A stretch of 21,786 bases of DNA from a virus: positions 1 to 21,786 of the IMG/VR virus record IMGVR_UViG_3300013297_000015, one strand, 5' to 3'. Positions 4,321 through 20,069 of the stretch are shown in pieces; the stretch's first letter is position 1, and each line of letters starts with the position of its first letter. The position numbers and the translations under genes were made by a program. Below the pieces are notes generated by a model, which saw nothing but the letters and a program-made list of their open reading frames with translations, made no database searches and was not told the DNA's origin.

Positions 4321-4670
4321 CCGATATCTCCCATTTCGGCCAGCAAGGTGGTGAACTCGTCGGGCGTCTCGACCTGCGGATCGTAGGATTGACGCAAAAG
4401 GTCGGCGACATTGCCGAGCGCGGCGTTGCGCGGATCCACGCGCCGCAGCGCGTTGAACAGGATCCGCACCGCGATATGGTCGCGCCGCACCTCGAACATC
4501 AGCTTGGCGACCAGCTTCTGGTCGTTCTCGCGATGCTTTTCGCAGTCGTCGACCTTGGCTTCCGCCGCCGCGATCCTCTTGTCCATTCGACGCAAAAGCC
4601 AGGCCACGCCACCTCCTGCCGCGGTAAGAAGCGGCACCAGCGCCGTGACCAACGAAGCGAGGTCGCTCAA
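4317..4670 (-). CDS. TM plus coiled-coil protein of the lysis cassette, function unknown
   Basis: The protein has 117 aa if it starts at TTG 4670, which overlaps the tailspike stop as TTGA. No ATG gives a full-length product, and the frame further upstream is tailspike DNA. An N-terminal hydrophobic segment (residues ~5-26, LASLVTALVPLLTAAGGGVAWLL) is followed by a charged helix (RRMDKRIAAAEAKVDDCEKHRE...) likely to form a coiled coil to ~60. A C-terminal region rich in D/N/P follows. One-TM plus coil proteins are common beside phage endolysins and have been proposed as spanin-like, antiholin-like or holin partners. The sequence does not decide between these. Translation is probably coupled to the tailspike. 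Confidence 0.72.
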   Translation of the reverse strand: MSDLASLVTALVPLLTAAGGGVAWLLRRMDKRIAAAEAKVDDCEKHRENDQKLVAKLMFEVRRDHIAVRILFNALRRVDPRNAALGNVADLLRQSYDPQVETPDEFTTLLAEMGDIG

Positions 4671-6940
4671 TTGAAATTGCCCTGCGCGAGGCAGGTGCCG
4701 GCGAACGCACCCGCCACGGTGATCGACGTGCCGTTGTTGCTCAGCTTGATCCCGCTCGCGCAGGAAGCGGGATCGATGCCCGACACGTCGAACGTGCAGC
4801 TCGTCGACGTCGTGCCGACGATCCGAATGCCCGGGCCGAACACGCCGGCGCCCCCGATGATCTGCGGTGCGACAATGATCCGGACGTTGGTGCCACTCAT
4901 GTCGATCGCACCGGCGCCGGAGGTGCCGACCGTGGGGTTGTTGATCCGCGGCGCCACGTAGCAGTTGGACGCTCCGCTGATCTGGACCGGGGCGCGGCAT
5001 TCGCGGATCAAGGTTCCACGGATGTTAACGCCGCTTGACCCATTGATCTTGATCCCGACATCGCCGGTGGTGGCGAGGCCGCCCAGGATCTGACCGCCAT
5101 CGATATCAACCAGGCCGGCGACGTTTTCGATGTCGATCGCCGCGACCGCGGTGGTGGAGCCGGTATTCAGCGCCGCATAGGGATTGGTGATGTTGACGAT
5201 CGTCTGCGCGCCGCCGCCCATCATTTTTATGCCGGAGATCAGGCATTGATCGAAGACGGCGTCGGCGACTTTGATGTCCTGCGTGCCGGTGCCCGAGGCG
5301 CCGGTGCCGTCGAGCACCATTCCGTATTGCGTGCCCGCGCTTTCGGGTCGCTCGATAAACCAGTCGGTATAACCAAGCTGGCCGTAGCTGTGTGCCGAAA
5401 TGGTGAGAGCGGGCGATCCGCCGACCGTCGTGTTGCAGTCGACTTCATAAACGGATGCATTGCCGCCGGCGAGACCGATCGCAGCTGATCCATCATAGAA
5501 GAAGCCGAAGAACGGATCATGCGCCGGGTCGGTGCCCGCCAATGACCGGAAGGAGAAGATCTCCTTGACCCGCGTCTGTACGCAACCAGAAAAAATCACG
5601 CCGATGCTGTGCTCGGTCGACCAGATATTTTCCGCGCTGCAATAGAGCGTATATTGCATGCGGATGCCGGCGGGGCAGTTCTTGTACGTCGCGTTGCCCG
5701 TCAGCGTCGGGCCGCGCACGATCGAAAGATCGCTGATGTGAACTTCCTGCAGAAAGAAGTTAGGGCCGCCCACCGGCTTGGTGTCAGGGCCGATCTGGAC
5801 CGCATCGGCGGTCGCGGACATCTGAACCAGCCGCGTGCTCTGGCCGCCGCTGCTCCAATGCTTGCTGATCCCGCGCAAGGTGCGGTGCGGCGTGTTGATC
5901 TTGAGCGTCTGGTTGAAGAAATAATCGCCCGCCACGAAATCGACCCGCGCGCACGCGGCAACTGCGGCGCCAACTGACGCCAGGTTTGCATTCATAGCCC
6001 CGGTCGAGCTGTCGTTGACGATCGCGCCCCACCATTCCGAAAGGGCGATCGTGGGCGAGACAGGGTCGAACACGATTATCCCGCCCAAGGACGTATCGAA
6101 GCATTTGCGATAAAGCGATCGGAACGCGCCCTTGATCGTGATCGTTACGCCGTTGGCCGGCTTCAGGATCCCACCATTCATGAAAACGTCGGTCAGAGTG
6201 ACGCTCGAACTGACCAGATAGGTTCCGTTGGGAACGACCATTTGCTTACCGGTGGCGTTCGCCGCCACCAGCGCCGCGGTGCAATCCGCCGCGCCATTGC
6301 GGTTGGCGGAGAAAGGCGGGTCGGTGATGCAGGCATCCTGCGCCAGCCGGTCCGCGACGCTGCCCGGCAAGCCGGGATCGGAATAGCTGAAGCCGACCAG
6401 CGCCGAGCCGATCGCGGACGCCAGGTCGGTGCGCAGCGCCGCGTCCGCGCCCCCCATGGTGAGGAACAGCAAGGCGCCCGCCGCGCCGACGCCGAGCACC
6501 GTGCCAAGATTGAGCGCTGGATCCGGTACCGGCGGCGCGGTCACGCCCGTCGGCACGCGCAGCGCGCGCGCATCGGTTTCGCCCTGCGCGGCATCGGCCT
6601 CCTGGCTGATCAGCATCTGGCGATCGAGCGCACGTTCGTGGCTCTCGGCCGGGAAATCATCGCCCACCACGTAGGCCATCTGCTGTTCGCGAGGCGTCTC
6701 CCTGCGGATCCGCAGCGTCGCGCCGTTCGTCGCCACCAGCCGCGTGATGCTGCCCCCGGTCGGATAGTCCGCTCCGCTGACCGTATAATCCGCCGACAGG
6801 CTGAGCGGAGTGGCAACTCCGCCTGCAACCCGTTCGACCACCAGGTCCGCATCCGCCAGAAACCGGAACGGCACCGGAAAGACGGTGGTAACGCCGTCCT
6901 CGATATAGCTGACCCGGCTGAGTGTGGTGGTGACCGTCAA
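4667..6940 (-). CDS. Tailspike: T7-tail-fibre-type N-terminus with beta-helix (pectate-lyase-like) body
   Basis: The protein has 757 aa from TTG at 6940, giving MTVTTTLSRVSY. This start has a GAAGGG ribosome-binding site nine bases upstream and matches how such tail proteins usually begin. An alternative TTG at 6961 adds seven residues but has a poor site. Residues 1-~125 (GVTTVFPVPFRFL... DYTVSG ... RETP ... FPAESHERALDRQMLISQEAD) are the virion-attachment domain of T7-like tail proteins. After a Pro-rich linker (~128-150), residues ~185-757 have the NGAADCTAALVAAN and G-T-Y-L-V-S pattern and repeated I/V-x-G-N strands of a right-handed beta-helix. Such bodies bind or cut surface polysaccharide. 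The substrate cannot be read from sequence. The gene follows a 200-base regulatory gap and starts the lysis run. Confidence 0.83.
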   Translation of the reverse strand: MTVTTTLSRVSYIEDGVTTVFPVPFRFLADADLVVERVAGGVATPLSLSADYTVSGADYPTGGSITRLVATNGATLRIRRETPREQQMAYVVGDDFPAESHERALDRQMLISQEADAAQGETDARALRVPTGVTAPPVPDPALNLGTVLGVGAAGALLFLTMGGADAALRTDLASAIGSALVGFSYSDPGLPGSVADRLAQDACITDPPFSANRNGAADCTAALVAANATGKQMVVPNGTYLVSSSVTLTDVFMNGGILKPANGVTITIKGAFRSLYRKCFDTSLGGIIVFDPVSPTIALSEWWGAIVNDSSTGAMNANLASVGAAVAACARVDFVAGDYFFNQTLKINTPHRTLRGISKHWSSGGQSTRLVQMSATADAVQIGPDTKPVGGPNFFLQEVHISDLSIVRGPTLTGNATYKNCPAGIRMQYTLYCSAENIWSTEHSIGVIFSGCVQTRVKEIFSFRSLAGTDPAHDPFFGFFYDGSAAIGLAGGNASVYEVDCNTTVGGSPALTISAHSYGQLGYTDWFIERPESAGTQYGMVLDGTGASGTGTQDIKVADAVFDQCLISGIKMMGGGAQTIVNITNPYAALNTGSTTAVAAIDIENVAGLVDIDGGQILGGLATTGDVGIKINGSSGVNIRGTLIRECRAPVQISGASNCYVAPRINNPTVGTSGAGAIDMSGTNVRIIVAPQIIGGAGVFGPGIRIVGTTSTSCTFDVSGIDPASCASGIKLSNNGTSITVAGAFAGTCLAQGNFN

Positions 6941-6949
6941 GGCGCGCTG

Positions 6950-6955
6950 CCCTTC
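6950..6955 (-). promoter_or_regulatory. Ribosome-binding site deciding the tailspike TTG start
   Basis: The minus strand reads GAAGGG here, nine bases before TTG 6940. The upstream alternative TTG at 6961 has no comparable purine run at a proper distance. The downstream start also places the shared 15-mer (6975-6989) 34 bases before the start, nearly the same as the 32 bases before the capsid ATG. Confidence 0.55.
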
Positions 6956-6974
6956 GTCCAAGGATTGCCTGGAT

Positions 6975-7121
6975 CGAAGGGCTAGGCGGTCAGCGAAAGA
7001 CCGGGCCTCTCTGGCGCTGTCGGGCGCGTCGCCGGCGGGTCCACCGCATGGGCCGGGGCGGTGTCCCCGCTAGGCCGGCCGATCGCATTTGTGCCATGGA
7101 ACCGCGGGCGCCGTCAATGCG
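6975..7121 (-). promoter_or_regulatory. Intergenic module B, upstream of the tailspike; homologous to module A before the capsid gene
   Basis: This non-coding stretch shares colinear blocks with 19896-20053. In plus-strand coordinates these are the 15-mer CGAAGGGCTAGGCGG (6975-6989), CCGGGCC (7001-7007), CGCGTCG (7025-7031), TCCACCG (7040-7046), CCGGGGC (7053-7059), the 11-mer GCTAGGCCGGC (7069-7079) and the 10-mer CCATGGAACC (7094-7103). Offsets from the first block are 26, 50, 65, 78, 94 and 119, close to module A except at the ends. On the transcribed strand the two CTAGGC blocks read GCCGGCCTAGC and CCGCCTAGCCCTTCG. Position before the tail gene, as with T7 promoter phi17, suggests a late promoter or processing region. 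No known promoter consensus is recognised. Confidence 0.6.
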
Positions 7122-7145
7122 TTGCGCAGCTTCGGCGCATCCCGA

Positions 7146-12244: not shown

Positions 12245-14362
12245 CTAGCGGATGCCGCCGCCGGCCGCGATCGCGGTCATGTCCGGTTCGGAGCCGCGTT
12301 GGGCCGGTGCGGGCCCGTCCGCCAGCCGGTGCACGTCGAACACGAAGGGTCGCCCGTCCTTCGCCGCGACGAAGGCATTGCCCGACCGCAGGCCGTACAG
12401 CCCCCGATGCGGATCGATCGCGACCGGAATATAGCTGCGCAGCTCAGCGGCTGTCGCCGCGCGCCCATGCTCGCCATCGCCTACCCAGGCGGGCGAGCCC
12501 GCCGCCGCAGCCGCGATCGACGTCGCGCGCGAAAGGCGGCGATCGAACTCGCCCTGCCCCATATCGTTGGGAAGCAGGATCTGCTGGCCGTTCCAGGTCC
12601 CGAGGCCGCCCGCGTCCGCGCCATTGACCTTGCCGCCGCCAAGCGCGAACCGGAACGACCGGCCGAGCTCGTCGGGCTTGAAATCGTGCCAGCCCATCTT
12701 GGCCGCGCTGCCGGCATAGAGGTTGTAGGTATTCGCGCGCAGCACCGCCTGGGTCGCCGCCGGCAGCCCCGCCAGCGCGGGCGCATAGCTGCCCCACAAT
12801 TCGTCGCGCGTCGGCCCTAGCGGCTTCTTCTCGTCGTCGACCTGGCGCGTCCACATCTCCTTGTTGGCCTTTTGCGCGTCGATCCCCTGCAGCGCGAGCC
12901 GCATGCGTTCTCCGCCGTCGTTGAACGAGGCCAGCGTCGCGGTCGCACGCAAGCCCTCGTCGCCCTGGGTCAGCGTGTCGAGCGTCTGTCTCGCCGCCGG
13001 CCCGGGCAGGCGCGTGATCGTCTGGAACAGCCCGATCTTCTGGTCGACCGTCCCGCTCTTGATCACTTCCTTGATCGGCGCTTCCTCGCCGGGCAGCAGG
13101 AAATCTGGCGCGCCTCCGTAGGTCGATCTGGCGCTCAGCCAAATTGCGGTCCTCTGCTGCACCTTCGCGGGATCCGACCAATCCGAGGCTGTTGCCAGTG
13201 GCGGCACGGATCGGCCTGTCGCATAGGCATAACGTCCGATACCCGGGAGACTGTTGACGTAATTCTGCTGCCCCTGCAGCCCCTTGAGCTCGGCGCCCTC
13301 CTCTGCCGTGCGTGTCGGCTTTGCGGCCAGCTCGGCGATGCGCGCCTGCCGCTCGATCGGCGATGCGCCGCGATATTGCTCGCTTGCGCCAATCTCGACG
13401 CTTTGCTGCTGCCAGGTCTGCGCCTTGAGCTCGGCGGCGGTTCGCTTTTCGGGTGTGGGCGCAGCCGCGGCGAGCGCGGCATAGGAGGCCGCCATATCCT
13501 TGGCCTGATCGAAGCTCGGCCGGCCCTGCTGATATTGCTGCGCCTGCAGCTCGAGCGCGCCCGACTTCGTCTCGAAATCGACATTCGCCGCGGCCTTGGC
13601 CTGGCTCCTGACCCGGTCCGCCGCGACCCGCGTTTGCGTGGTCAGCGCATCATATTGCTCGGGCGGCAACGCCGCCTGCACCTCGGGGCGGCTCAACCAT
13701 GCCGCCGCCGACGTCGGATCGTTCGAATTGTTGAGCGCCTGCACGCCGCTCGAATAGATCTGCGCATGCAGATGCTGGCGGAACTTCTCCCGCTGCGTCG
13801 GATCGAGCTGGTCGAGACTGCCGGCAAGATGGTCGGCCTGGTCGAGCGAGGCGCCCAGCGTGGCAACGTCGGGGTTCGCCGCGACCCGGTTGGCGATCCC
13901 GTTGGAGGCCGCCGCCGCATTGTTGACCTGCTGCCCCGCCAGCGCGCCGCGCTGCATCACGTCGAGCCGGTCGGCCAGTTCGGCGCGCTGCTGCGCGATC
14001 ATCACGTCAAAGCGCTGCGCCGCCTTGGGATCGGTCGGGCGCAAGCTCTGGGTGCGCTCGTCCCAATCGTTCAGCCCATATTCCGCGATCTTGTCCGGCG
14101 CGGCCGTCTTGGGCAGATCGCGCACGAACGCGTCATTCTCGGAAGAGGCCTTCGCCAGATCGGCCTGTGCGCCCAGCAATTGCGTCGTGCGGTTCTGCTC
14201 GACCTCGATCCGTTTCGCCTGGACCGCGGCATGGTCGAGCTCGTGGCCCGCATGCTCGAGCGCGCTGCCGATGATCCCGCCCATCGCATCGGCGCTCACG
14301 CCCTCGATCTGGGGCGATCCGCCCGGGCCGACCTGCGGCTGATAGACGCCCGGGATCGCCAT
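12245..14362 (-). CDS. Internal virion protein, T7 gp15-like
   Basis: The protein has 705 aa from ATG 14362, with a one-base overlap with the preceding stop (TGATG). Composition is Ala/Gln-rich and overwhelmingly helical (for example AQADLAKASSENDAF, RFDVMIAQQRAELADRLDVMQRG, KSGALELQAQQYQQGRPSF). There is no signal peptide, long transmembrane stretch or catalytic motif. Its length is near that of T7 gp15, and its place after a gp14-like gene and before a transglycosylase protein is the T7 order. It should form part of the core ejected into the periplasm during DNA entry. The identification rests on order, length and character rather than a diagnostic motif. Confidence 0.72.
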   Translation of the reverse strand: MAIPGVYQPQVGPGGSPQIEGVSADAMGGIIGSALEHAGHELDHAAVQAKRIEVEQNRTTQLLGAQADLAKASSENDAFVRDLPKTAAPDKIAEYGLNDWDERTQSLRPTDPKAAQRFDVMIAQQRAELADRLDVMQRGALAGQQVNNAAAASNGIANRVAANPDVATLGASLDQADHLAGSLDQLDPTQREKFRQHLHAQIYSSGVQALNNSNDPTSAAAWLSRPEVQAALPPEQYDALTTQTRVAADRVRSQAKAAANVDFETKSGALELQAQQYQQGRPSFDQAKDMAASYAALAAAAPTPEKRTAAELKAQTWQQQSVEIGASEQYRGASPIERQARIAELAAKPTRTAEEGAELKGLQGQQNYVNSLPGIGRYAYATGRSVPPLATASDWSDPAKVQQRTAIWLSARSTYGGAPDFLLPGEEAPIKEVIKSGTVDQKIGLFQTITRLPGPAARQTLDTLTQGDEGLRATATLASFNDGGERMRLALQGIDAQKANKEMWTRQVDDEKKPLGPTRDELWGSYAPALAGLPAATQAVLRANTYNLYAGSAAKMGWHDFKPDELGRSFRFALGGGKVNGADAGGLGTWNGQQILLPNDMGQGEFDRRLSRATSIAAAAAGSPAWVGDGEHGRAATAAELRSYIPVAIDPHRGLYGLRSGNAFVAAKDGRPFVFDVHRLADGPAPAQRGSEPDMTAIAAGGGIR

Positions 14363-18936: not shown

Positions 18937-19863
18937 TCATGCCTCGCTGTTGAGGATGTAGCCGCACTTGGCGTTGTCGGTCCGCGTGCAGGCGATCGCG
19001 GTGCGCGCGTAGATCTGCGCGCTGTCGCCCTTGTCGTGCCGGATCGACAGCGAGGAATACATATCCTCCCACGGCACCGCGCGGACGCCCGACTTGGCCC
19101 AGAACGGGTTCTTTCGGTAGTTCGAAGAATCGAGCGTGAGGCCCGCATTGTCGAACAGGGTGTTCGACAATTCGATCTCGACGAAGGTGAAGCCGGCGAG
19201 GCCGAGCAATTGCTTGCCGTCGGACGACCAGCGCGGCTTGACCGTGCCGGCATAATCGCTGCTCAGAACCAGCACCTGGCCGGTGAGATCGTCGATCTGC
19301 TCGGCGGTGAATGCCGCATACCATTCCTCGTTGGGATCGACGAAGCCCTTCATCAGCAGCTTACGTGCCGCGCGCAGCTTCTCGACGTTCATGCGCGCCG
19401 CCGACGCCGCGCCGGTCGCGACAGGAACGACCATCGAACCCGAAAAGGCCGTGTTGGTGGTACCGTTCTTGCCGGTCAGCATGTTGCCATAGAAGCCTGC
19501 CAGCCACGCATCATCCTTGGCGCGCGCGATCATGCCGGCATTCGCCATGACGTAGGCCGACTGCAACTGAATGCCGCTCTCGAGCTGGTCCATCGTGTCG
19601 ACGAGGAAGCCGTTGTCGATCGGATCGGGCGCGACCACCCACACGCGATCGTGGGTCGCGTCGGTGATGTTCGTGTCCTGGTTGCGTGTCGCGCGCTTCT
19701 GGCCCTTCACATTGCCGACGATGTCGTCGAGCTTGACCTTTTCGCCGACACCCTGCGTCGTCGGGCACAGGCTGTAGAGGCGGCTTTCCTGCTGCTGCAG
19801 CGCAAGGCGCATGCTGTCTTCATATTTGACGATGAAGCTATTCGGGATCTGACTGATGGCCAT
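18937..19863 (-). CDS. Major capsid protein
   Basis: The protein has 308 aa, starting at ATG 19863 (MAISQIPNSFIVKYEDSM). GGAGGG lies four bases upstream; an in-frame TTG five codons earlier falls on that site and is rejected. The sequence has hallmarks of the HK97-fold capsid family common in podoviral prophages: helical N-terminus (RLALQQQESRLY), E-loop-like KGQKRATRNQDTNI, VWVVAPDPIDNGFLVDTMDQLESGIQ, and a C-terminal P/A-domain region with FTAEQIDDLTGQVLVL, GFTFVEIEL and RKNPFWAKSGVRAVPWEDM. It lies after the scaffold-like gene and before small head genes. The 206-base gap upstream contains the shared module A, suggesting separate strong transcription. Confidence 0.87.
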   Translation of the reverse strand: MAISQIPNSFIVKYEDSMRLALQQQESRLYSLCPTTQGVGEKVKLDDIVGNVKGQKRATRNQDTNITDATHDRVWVVAPDPIDNGFLVDTMDQLESGIQLQSAYVMANAGMIARAKDDAWLAGFYGNMLTGKNGTTNTAFSGSMVVPVATGAASAARMNVEKLRAARKLLMKGFVDPNEEWYAAFTAEQIDDLTGQVLVLSSDYAGTVKPRWSSDGKQLLGLAGFTFVEIELSNTLFDNAGLTLDSSNYRKNPFWAKSGVRAVPWEDMYSSLSIRHDKGDSAQIYARTAIACTRTDNAKCGYILNSEA

Positions 19864-19867
19864 GGGG

Positions 19868-19873
19868 CCCTCC
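19868..19873 (-). promoter_or_regulatory. Strong ribosome-binding site of the capsid gene
   Basis: The minus strand reads GGAGGG followed by CCCC and ATG at 19863. It fixes the start at the sixth codon of the longer frame and fits the high expression expected for a capsid gene. Confidence 0.75.
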
Positions 19874-19895
19874 AGCAAAAGGTTGAGACCGATTG

Positions 19896-20053
19896 CGAAG
19901 GGCTAGGCGGGGCAATCCCCGGGCCGCCTCTAGCGATTTACGTCCGCGTCGACGACGGCTTCCACCGTGGGGACCGGGGCCGATTAAGGCTAGGCCGGCT
20001 CTTGAAACGATTAGCGGGCGGAAATTCCCATGGAACCCCGCCCGCTGTCAAGC
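19896..20053 (-). promoter_or_regulatory. Intergenic module A, upstream of the capsid gene; homologous to module B before the tailspike
   Basis: The shared blocks in plus-strand coordinates are CGAAGGGCTAGGCGG (19896-19910), CCGGGCC (19919-19925), CGCGTCG (19945-19951), TCCACCG (19961-19967), CCGGGGC (19974-19980), GCTAGGCCGGC (19989-19999) and CCATGGAACC (20028-20037). The same blocks occur in the same order at 6975-7103. The proximal 15-mer lies 32 bases before the capsid ATG. On the transcribed strand the CTAGGC elements read GCCGGCCTAGC and CCGCCTAGCCCTTCG, about 90 bases apart. Late phage promoters, RNA processing or terminator-promoter units are all possible. The T7 parallel is promoter phi10 before gene 10. 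Confidence 0.6.
20013..20046 (-). terminator. 9-bp hairpin between scaffold and capsid genes; possible terminator
   Basis: AGCGGGCGG (20013-20021) pairs exactly with CCGCCCGCT (20038-20046). An inner TTCC/GGAA pair could extend the fold within the 16-base loop. It is 24 bases past the scaffold stop. On the transcribed strand the stem is followed by AATCGTTTC, only a weak U-run. The stem arms are not preserved in module B even though the loop motif CCATGGAACC is. Confidence 0.4.
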
Positions 20054-20069
20054 GTTCGCGTGATCGCCT

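Follow-up and report, generated by a model that had tools for sequence, protein, structure and literature searches.

The only two intergenic gaps of more than 150 nt in the window (the whole stretch of DNA analysed here, a 21.8-kb virus contig fragment in which no host DNA was seen) measure 206 and 205 nt according to our gene calls, as an earlier note on this sequence had stated. Each lies directly before a gene encoded on the minus strand. The major capsid gene (18937..19863) matches the major head protein family phrog_3437 (2e-40) and is 44% identical to its counterpart in MT835618. The second gene (4667..6940) encodes a tail fibre or tailspike with a T7-tail-like N-terminus (phrog_1640, 1e-28; PF03906, 3e-5, just below the cut-off) and has a likely TTG start. 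Further assignments are phrog_376 for the tail and phrog_684 for a virion protein. Judged by the sequences of its capsid and virion proteins, the phage is of the HTVC010P/phiV10 podophage kind and not of the T7 kind.

Close relatives are Sphingomonas prophages and viral contigs (L numbers in the following). The contig L005 (IMGVR_UViG_3300013296_000104) carries a capsid gene 100% identical to that of the window and extends the phage upstream of this gene. Two unannotated 'human fecal' records (L007 and L008; MT835618 and MT835534) are Sphingomonas-type podophages with the leader described below, and possibly represent contaminants or food-borne phages. The window gene at 213-2912 shows a weak SASA esterase domain (3.6e-4, below the curated cut-off) and an N-terminus like that of a phage structural protein; it possibly encodes a polysaccharide-modifying tail protein.

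The two gaps are homologous, in agreement with the earlier note. Local alignment of 19864-20069 (before the capsid gene, copy A) with 6941-7145 (before the tail-fibre gene, copy B) gave a score of 60, compared to 18.2±3.0 (maximum 32) for 1000 dinucleotide shuffles, a check the note had proposed, and 29.5 for the highest-scoring stretch elsewhere in the window. The shared blocks it had listed are present: the 15-mer CGAAGGGCTAGGCGG is identical at 6975-6989 and 19896-19910 and has no further site in the window with up to 3 mismatches allowed, the 11-mer GCTAGGCCGGC occurs in exact copies at 7069-7079 and 19989-19999 only, CCATGGAACC is common to both regions, and the block order is kept. Taking TTG (6940-6938) and ATG (19863-19861) as the start codons agrees with the spacing of 34 and 32 nt given in the note. 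The placement ahead of the capsid and tail-fibre genes holds as well, but the blocks had been listed in the reverse of their functional order, since both genes, and hence the element, are located on the minus strand.

Homology continues upstream, where TTGAC and TTCCATGG are found in both copies. The former is part of the -35-like hexamers TTGACA (20046..20051, minus strand) upstream of copy A and TTGACG (7112..7117, minus strand) upstream of copy B. TTGAC is also common upstream of related leaders, with a clear -10 in some only; none was found near the TTGACA of copy A, and a sigma-70 scan of the window gave nothing above chance. Going by these motifs, a host-type promoter may lie just upstream of the leader, and promoter and leader were possibly duplicated together. 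L012-L030 exhibit a conserved TTGACGCGCGAGTCG...TATGA about 200-260 nt before the capsid ATG, promoter-like with a short spacing, and L037, L042, L043 and L063 contain sigma-70-like pairs upstream of the first conserved helix, P1.

Fold and covariation of the leader RNA

Both copies are structured RNAs read on the minus strand, each spanning about 140 nt (P1 up to the start codon). When the sense strand was folded, the shared 15-mer paired with the Shine-Dalgarno (SD) sequence in a hairpin in both copies. Leaders of related capsid genes exhibit the same SD hairpin with other letters and the same series of hairpins further upstream. From 5' to 3', the fold comprises an optional variable hairpin, P1, P2, P3, P4, P5, the SD and the start codon. 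P1 contains an internal loop of 4 bases opposite 1 (CCUA/C in the window), the P2 loop reads UGGA in leaders of the Sphingomonas type and is GAAA-like elsewhere, P3 is an H-type pseudoknot whose loop pairs with a segment just downstream, and the 3' arm of P5 carries the SD. A further helix, P4x, has one strand in common with P5; the two are mutually exclusive and define an SD-open and an SD-closed fold, respectively. Unguided RNAalifold on twelve leaders returned P1, P2, P3, P4 and P4x on the anti-SD strand.

The model R3, built from nine Sphingomonas-phage leaders with the window sequence excluded, detects copy A (19864..20002, minus strand; 103.8 bits, E=2.6e-26) directly before the capsid gene and copy B (6945..7082, minus strand; 46.0 bits, E=4.4e-11) directly before the tail-fibre gene; the next best value in the window, 0.029, is not convincing. 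On L005, R3 detects copy A only. All helices given here are on the minus strand. In copy A, P1 (GCCGG-CCUA-GCC...GGC-C-CCGGU, 19973..19999) has covarying pairs, includes the 11-mer and contains the internal loop CCUA/C at 19994-19991. It is followed by P2 (ACGG-UGGAAG-CCGU, 19955..19968), with 4/4 pairs changed on both sides across relatives, and by P3 (CGUC-GACGCG-GACG, 19933..19954), which covaries and forms a pseudoknot of only 3 bp (GCG:CGC), the permutation test for which is given below. P4x (GA..GGC with GCC..UC, 19897..19930; found unprompted by RNAalifold and backed by pair counts) belongs to the open-SD fold and encloses P4 (CGGGG:CCCCG, 19921-19908) with a second CCUA/C internal loop (CCUA at 19907-19904). 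The closed-SD fold contains P5 (GCCCUUCGCAA...UUGCUGGAGGGC, 19867..19903; pair counts), in whose 3' arm the SD GGAGGG (19873-19868) is paired with P=1.00 (z=-3.5).

In copy B, the inner stem of P1 (GCCGG-CCUA-GCGG...CCGC-C-CCGGC, 7052..7079) differs from that of copy A by compensatory changes. P2 (GCGG-UGGAC-CCGC) and P3 with the pseudoknot GCGC:GCGC span 7014..7047 (covariation, pseudoknot test, R3), and P4x and P4 (CGGUC:GACCG), with CCUA at 6986-6983, span 6976..7011 (covariation, R3). P5 (GCCCUUCG:CGAAGGGC, 6949..6982; SD paired with P=1.00, z=-4.2) keeps an SD stem of 8 bp, and the likely SD GAAGGG (6955-6950) lies within it.

Covariation supports every helix of the leader. The alignment A5 (25 distinct rows) was fitted to the P1-P5 structure, so that its figures for the core (except P4x) and for P5 lean towards this structure; in it, 89.7% of the cells of core and P4x were paired, 21/27 pairs showed two-sided changes, and the covariation score was 0.470, compared to 0.142±0.013 for shuffled alignments and a maximum of 0.102 for slid ones. 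P4x alone, which lies outside the model that made A5, was 79% paired (slid at most 43%), with two-sided changes in L015, L016, L030 and others, and P5 was 81% paired with two-sided changes in 8 pairs. A plain MAFFT alignment agreed with this, at 87.6% paired, 16 two-sided pairs and a score of 0.381 (0.134±0.018 after shuffling). The pseudoknot pairing within 24 hand-parsed leaders scored 270.5 compared to 146.5±19.3 after permutation (0/20000), where the permutations ignore relatedness and the hand parsing of pseudoknot and loop segments could somewhat favour own pairs. The SD is located in a paired arm in 32/36 leaders (median z -3.0).

These data retain part of the earlier note's main proposal. 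A duplicated regulatory module does precede the capsid and tail-fibre genes, but its main content is not a late promoter or transcription-factor array, since the shared blocks are RNA helix arms and internal loops with compensatory changes.

Concerted change of two internal loops

Within a phage, the loop strand of P1 agrees with that of P4x/P4, whereas between phages it differs. CCUA, CCAA, ACAA, AUAA, GGAA and GAAA were observed, as well as CAUC, CACC and UUUC in another group. Among the hand-assigned loop letters, 89/104 were alike between P1 and P4x, compared to 42.4±5.9 in permutations that ignore relatedness (0/20000); permuting within groups only gave 3/20000. Loop pairs that do not match occur, for example in L016, L030, L045 and L009. 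L085 and L013 have nearly identical leaders, which differ by a U-to-A change from CCUA to CCAA at both loops. By contrast, the prophages L085 and L084 show about 80-82% identity overall, and the capsid of L013 is identical to that of L084. In L008 and L085, the capsids are 97% identical and the loop letters differ (CCUA, CCAA), which makes the capsid protein doubtful as the reader of the loops.

The CCUA motifs might pair with one another directly, as CUAG is palindromic; this was rejected, since ACAA, AUAA and AUCC lack that property. The 11-nt GAAA tetraloop receptor also contains CCUA; its partner strand UAUGG is absent here, and we do not claim such a receptor.

Occurrence of the leader in other phages

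In dozens of phages of the podovirus type, the major capsid gene is immediately preceded by this leader. A model trained on Sphingomonas-type leaders (R1) matched before the capsid genes of divergent relatives outside the training set (L035, 2.5e-5; L020, 4.6e-5; L029, 4e-4; L044, 1.6e-3). With the model R2, 21 matches were obtained, nearly all directly before the capsid start, including L091 (1e-10), L034 (4e-5), L025, L037 and L058 and, more weakly, L036, L053 and L027. An exact DNA pattern search of all viral contigs returned the overlapping contig L005/L010 only, since the fold persists through sequence divergence. The element was present in 5/299 genomes of a Sphingomonadaceae survey, as a single copy in each, and a class-level survey of 289 genomes with stricter filters matched only the known centre genome.

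phiV10 has no gap ahead of its capsid gene, and the leader of a Vibrio phage is different by eye. In the Pelagibacter phages HTVC010P (L105 2880-2995) and Lederberg (L106 2880-2992), a reduced leader seems to precede the capsid gene, by inspection and not by statistics; R2 gives these two no score. It comprises AGAAGGAATAGACTCT (the letters of P2 in L053), a P3-like hairpin, UUAAA, P4 and an SD hairpin. The P4 letters of the two phages differ yet pair.

A second copy is uncommon. Among 28 whole records a second strong copy was found only in L022 and in the L086 host genome (Sphingomonas sp. Ant H11), that is, in one other prophage type. There it follows inserted genes including an anti-repressor (phrog_130) and precedes the gene for an internal head protein. 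P1-P4x and the upper part of P5 are kept (124.6 bits); the SD-pairing stem is lost and no clear SD is present, so that SD sequestration is not seen in this copy. Since position and neighbours differ, the duplications in the window and in L086/L022 look independent. The Sphingomonas prophage has the anti-repressor cargo inserted into its late structural operon (L086 15100-17450 and the equivalent in L022), and a 29-aa GTG ORF behind the second copy overlaps the start of the next gene (TGATG). L006 exhibits a different hairpin with a GGGGGA SD before its tail gene (12600-12785); SD sequestering at tail genes may be more general.

Possible role and relation to known systems

The location of the SD in a covarying arm, together with a competing upstream helix and a pseudoknot, makes translational switching the best reading. 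We propose that the leader may be a cis-acting structured RNA that serves as a translational switch on capsid and tail-fibre synthesis, a reading which we regard as about evenly poised with a slight lean in its favour. The mRNA of the capsid (copy A) or of the tail fibre (copy B) would carry the leader at or near its 5' end. With the fold closed, the GCCCUUCG strand would be paired with the SD in P5; with the fold open, this strand would pair upstream (P4x), the SD would be freed, and the asymmetric internal loop of P1 (CCUA opposite C) would be rebuilt beside P4. Two hallmarks of such a switch, sequestration of the SD and an exclusive anti-SD helix, were found. In the cell, a trans-acting partner that we infer, most plausibly a phage protein, would recognise both like loops together with the pseudoknot and shift the balance of the folds in one direction or the other, setting the synthesis of the capsid, and here also of the tail fibre, at translation. 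The likeness of the loops suggests one partner binding twice. By nearest-neighbour energy, the closed fold of copy A is favoured by 7 kcal/mol (the estimates for many other leaders are unreliable, as the alignment misplaces the SD arm). These calculated energies do not show a balanced switch; with the closed fold as default in copy A, opening would need the partner or folding during transcription. More broadly, the leader class might sense a phage protein (e.g. the virion assembly state) through the pseudoknot and the two loops and so set capsid translation, and a phage could bring another virion gene under this control by copying the module; this wider version we consider possible, if rather improbable.

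The main rival is a put-like antitermination RNA: the leader would bind the emerging host RNA polymerase, which then ignores the terminators of the late operon, and two copies would serve two transcription units like putL and putR of HK022. We think this unlikely, although the two put RNAs of HK022 are indeed similar, follow two promoters and act in cis without a phage protein (PMC9378689), and the copies described here likewise follow TTGAC elements and precede long structural operons. The second copy in L086/L022, which follows anti-repressor cargo and retains the core fold but no SD stem, agrees poorly with a role in translation only, and better with antitermination. However, nearly all genomes have a hairpin with the SD at the capsid start codon, for which antitermination has no need, and loop letters that vary among phages of one host genus would be odd for a conserved host polymerase. 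Furthermore, put comprises about 70 nt in two hairpins, whereas the leader is twice as long and pseudoknotted.

Alternatively it might be that the leader stabilises or processes mRNA, no switch being involved: the pseudoknotted 5' end would shield the capsid mRNA, or cleavage would yield a separate capsid transcript. Among late products, the capsid is usually made in the largest amount, its transcript may begin with the element, and the hairpins of the element are stable (median z -3), but two exclusive covarying helices, the concerted loop change and the position of the SD would be left unexplained, and we judge this distinctly improbable. Very little speaks for a duplicated DNA element consisting of a host promoter and transcription-factor sites, with incidental RNA folding: TTGAC upstream of both copies and of many relatives agrees with it, whereas compensatory changes throughout, the pseudoknot test and the success of covariance models with remote members, recognised by position, argue against it. 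Hardly conceivable, finally, is a late promoter used by a single-subunit RNA polymerase of the T7 type, as raised by the earlier note because of the position before capsid and tail genes (phi10 and phi17 in T7). The phage RNA polymerase domain PF00940 was found in none of about 20 related records (16 records and five named relatives; the window itself is only a fragment), whereas the T7 control gave 1e-110, and the HTVC010P-type pelagiphage Skadi was reported without an RNA polymerase gene (PMC10504331). As the relatives have HTVC010P/phiV10-like proteins and lack PF00940, the analogy to T7 is limited to gene position.

Capsid dosage in tailed phages without their own polymerase is poorly understood, and the leader, read as a translational switch, would offer a concrete, testable control point, common to Sphingomonas prophages, many environmental podophages and possibly pelagiphages of the HTVC010P type, which are very abundant. 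That two internal loops lying apart change in concert is unusual as an evolutionary signature and marks the first sites for mutation.

Rfam 15 contained nothing near the gathering score for the window, eight related leader loci and one pelagiphage. The best hit on the leader was ncS011 (18 bits, cut-off 48), upstream of the core; known families of riboswitches, ribozymes and frameshift elements were rejected, as none came near threshold. Like riboswitches and ribosomal-protein leaders, the leader has an anti-SD strand common to two exclusive helices and a conserved upstream fold; unlike them, it matches no Rfam family, and its variable loop letters argue against an invariant small-molecule pocket. 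The phi29 packaging RNA, a phage structured RNA connected with capsids, is of similar length, but acts in trans as a separate molecule, whereas the leader forms one molecule with the start codon and SD of the capsid gene. No description of the leader was found in the open literature, and the authors describing Skadi found no ribonucleotide switches (PMC10504331).

Like the leader, the put RNAs of HK022 (PMC9378689) are two similar structured RNAs per genome in which internal bulges matter, and each is placed between a promoter and a long operon; unlike it, they belong to early genes and have no tie to an SD. A put RNA measures roughly 70 nt and forms two stem-loops; for the leader, the figures are about 140 nt, five helices and one pseudoknot. 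The T4 gene 32 operator consists of a pseudoknot of about 28 nt and a less structured ribosome site with UUAAA repeats, bound by gp32 (PMC535899). As in gene 32, where it controls the translation of an abundant phage protein, the pseudoknot of the leader lies upstream of the start codon; unlike there, the ribosome site is not open, as the SD itself is paired, and the fold extends to five hairpins with a pair of like internal loops and alternative pairings. The kind of element, a cis-acting structured phage mRNA leader, is thus known from T4 gene 32 (PMC535899), whereas the family appears to be new, as do its fold and its association with the major capsid gene.
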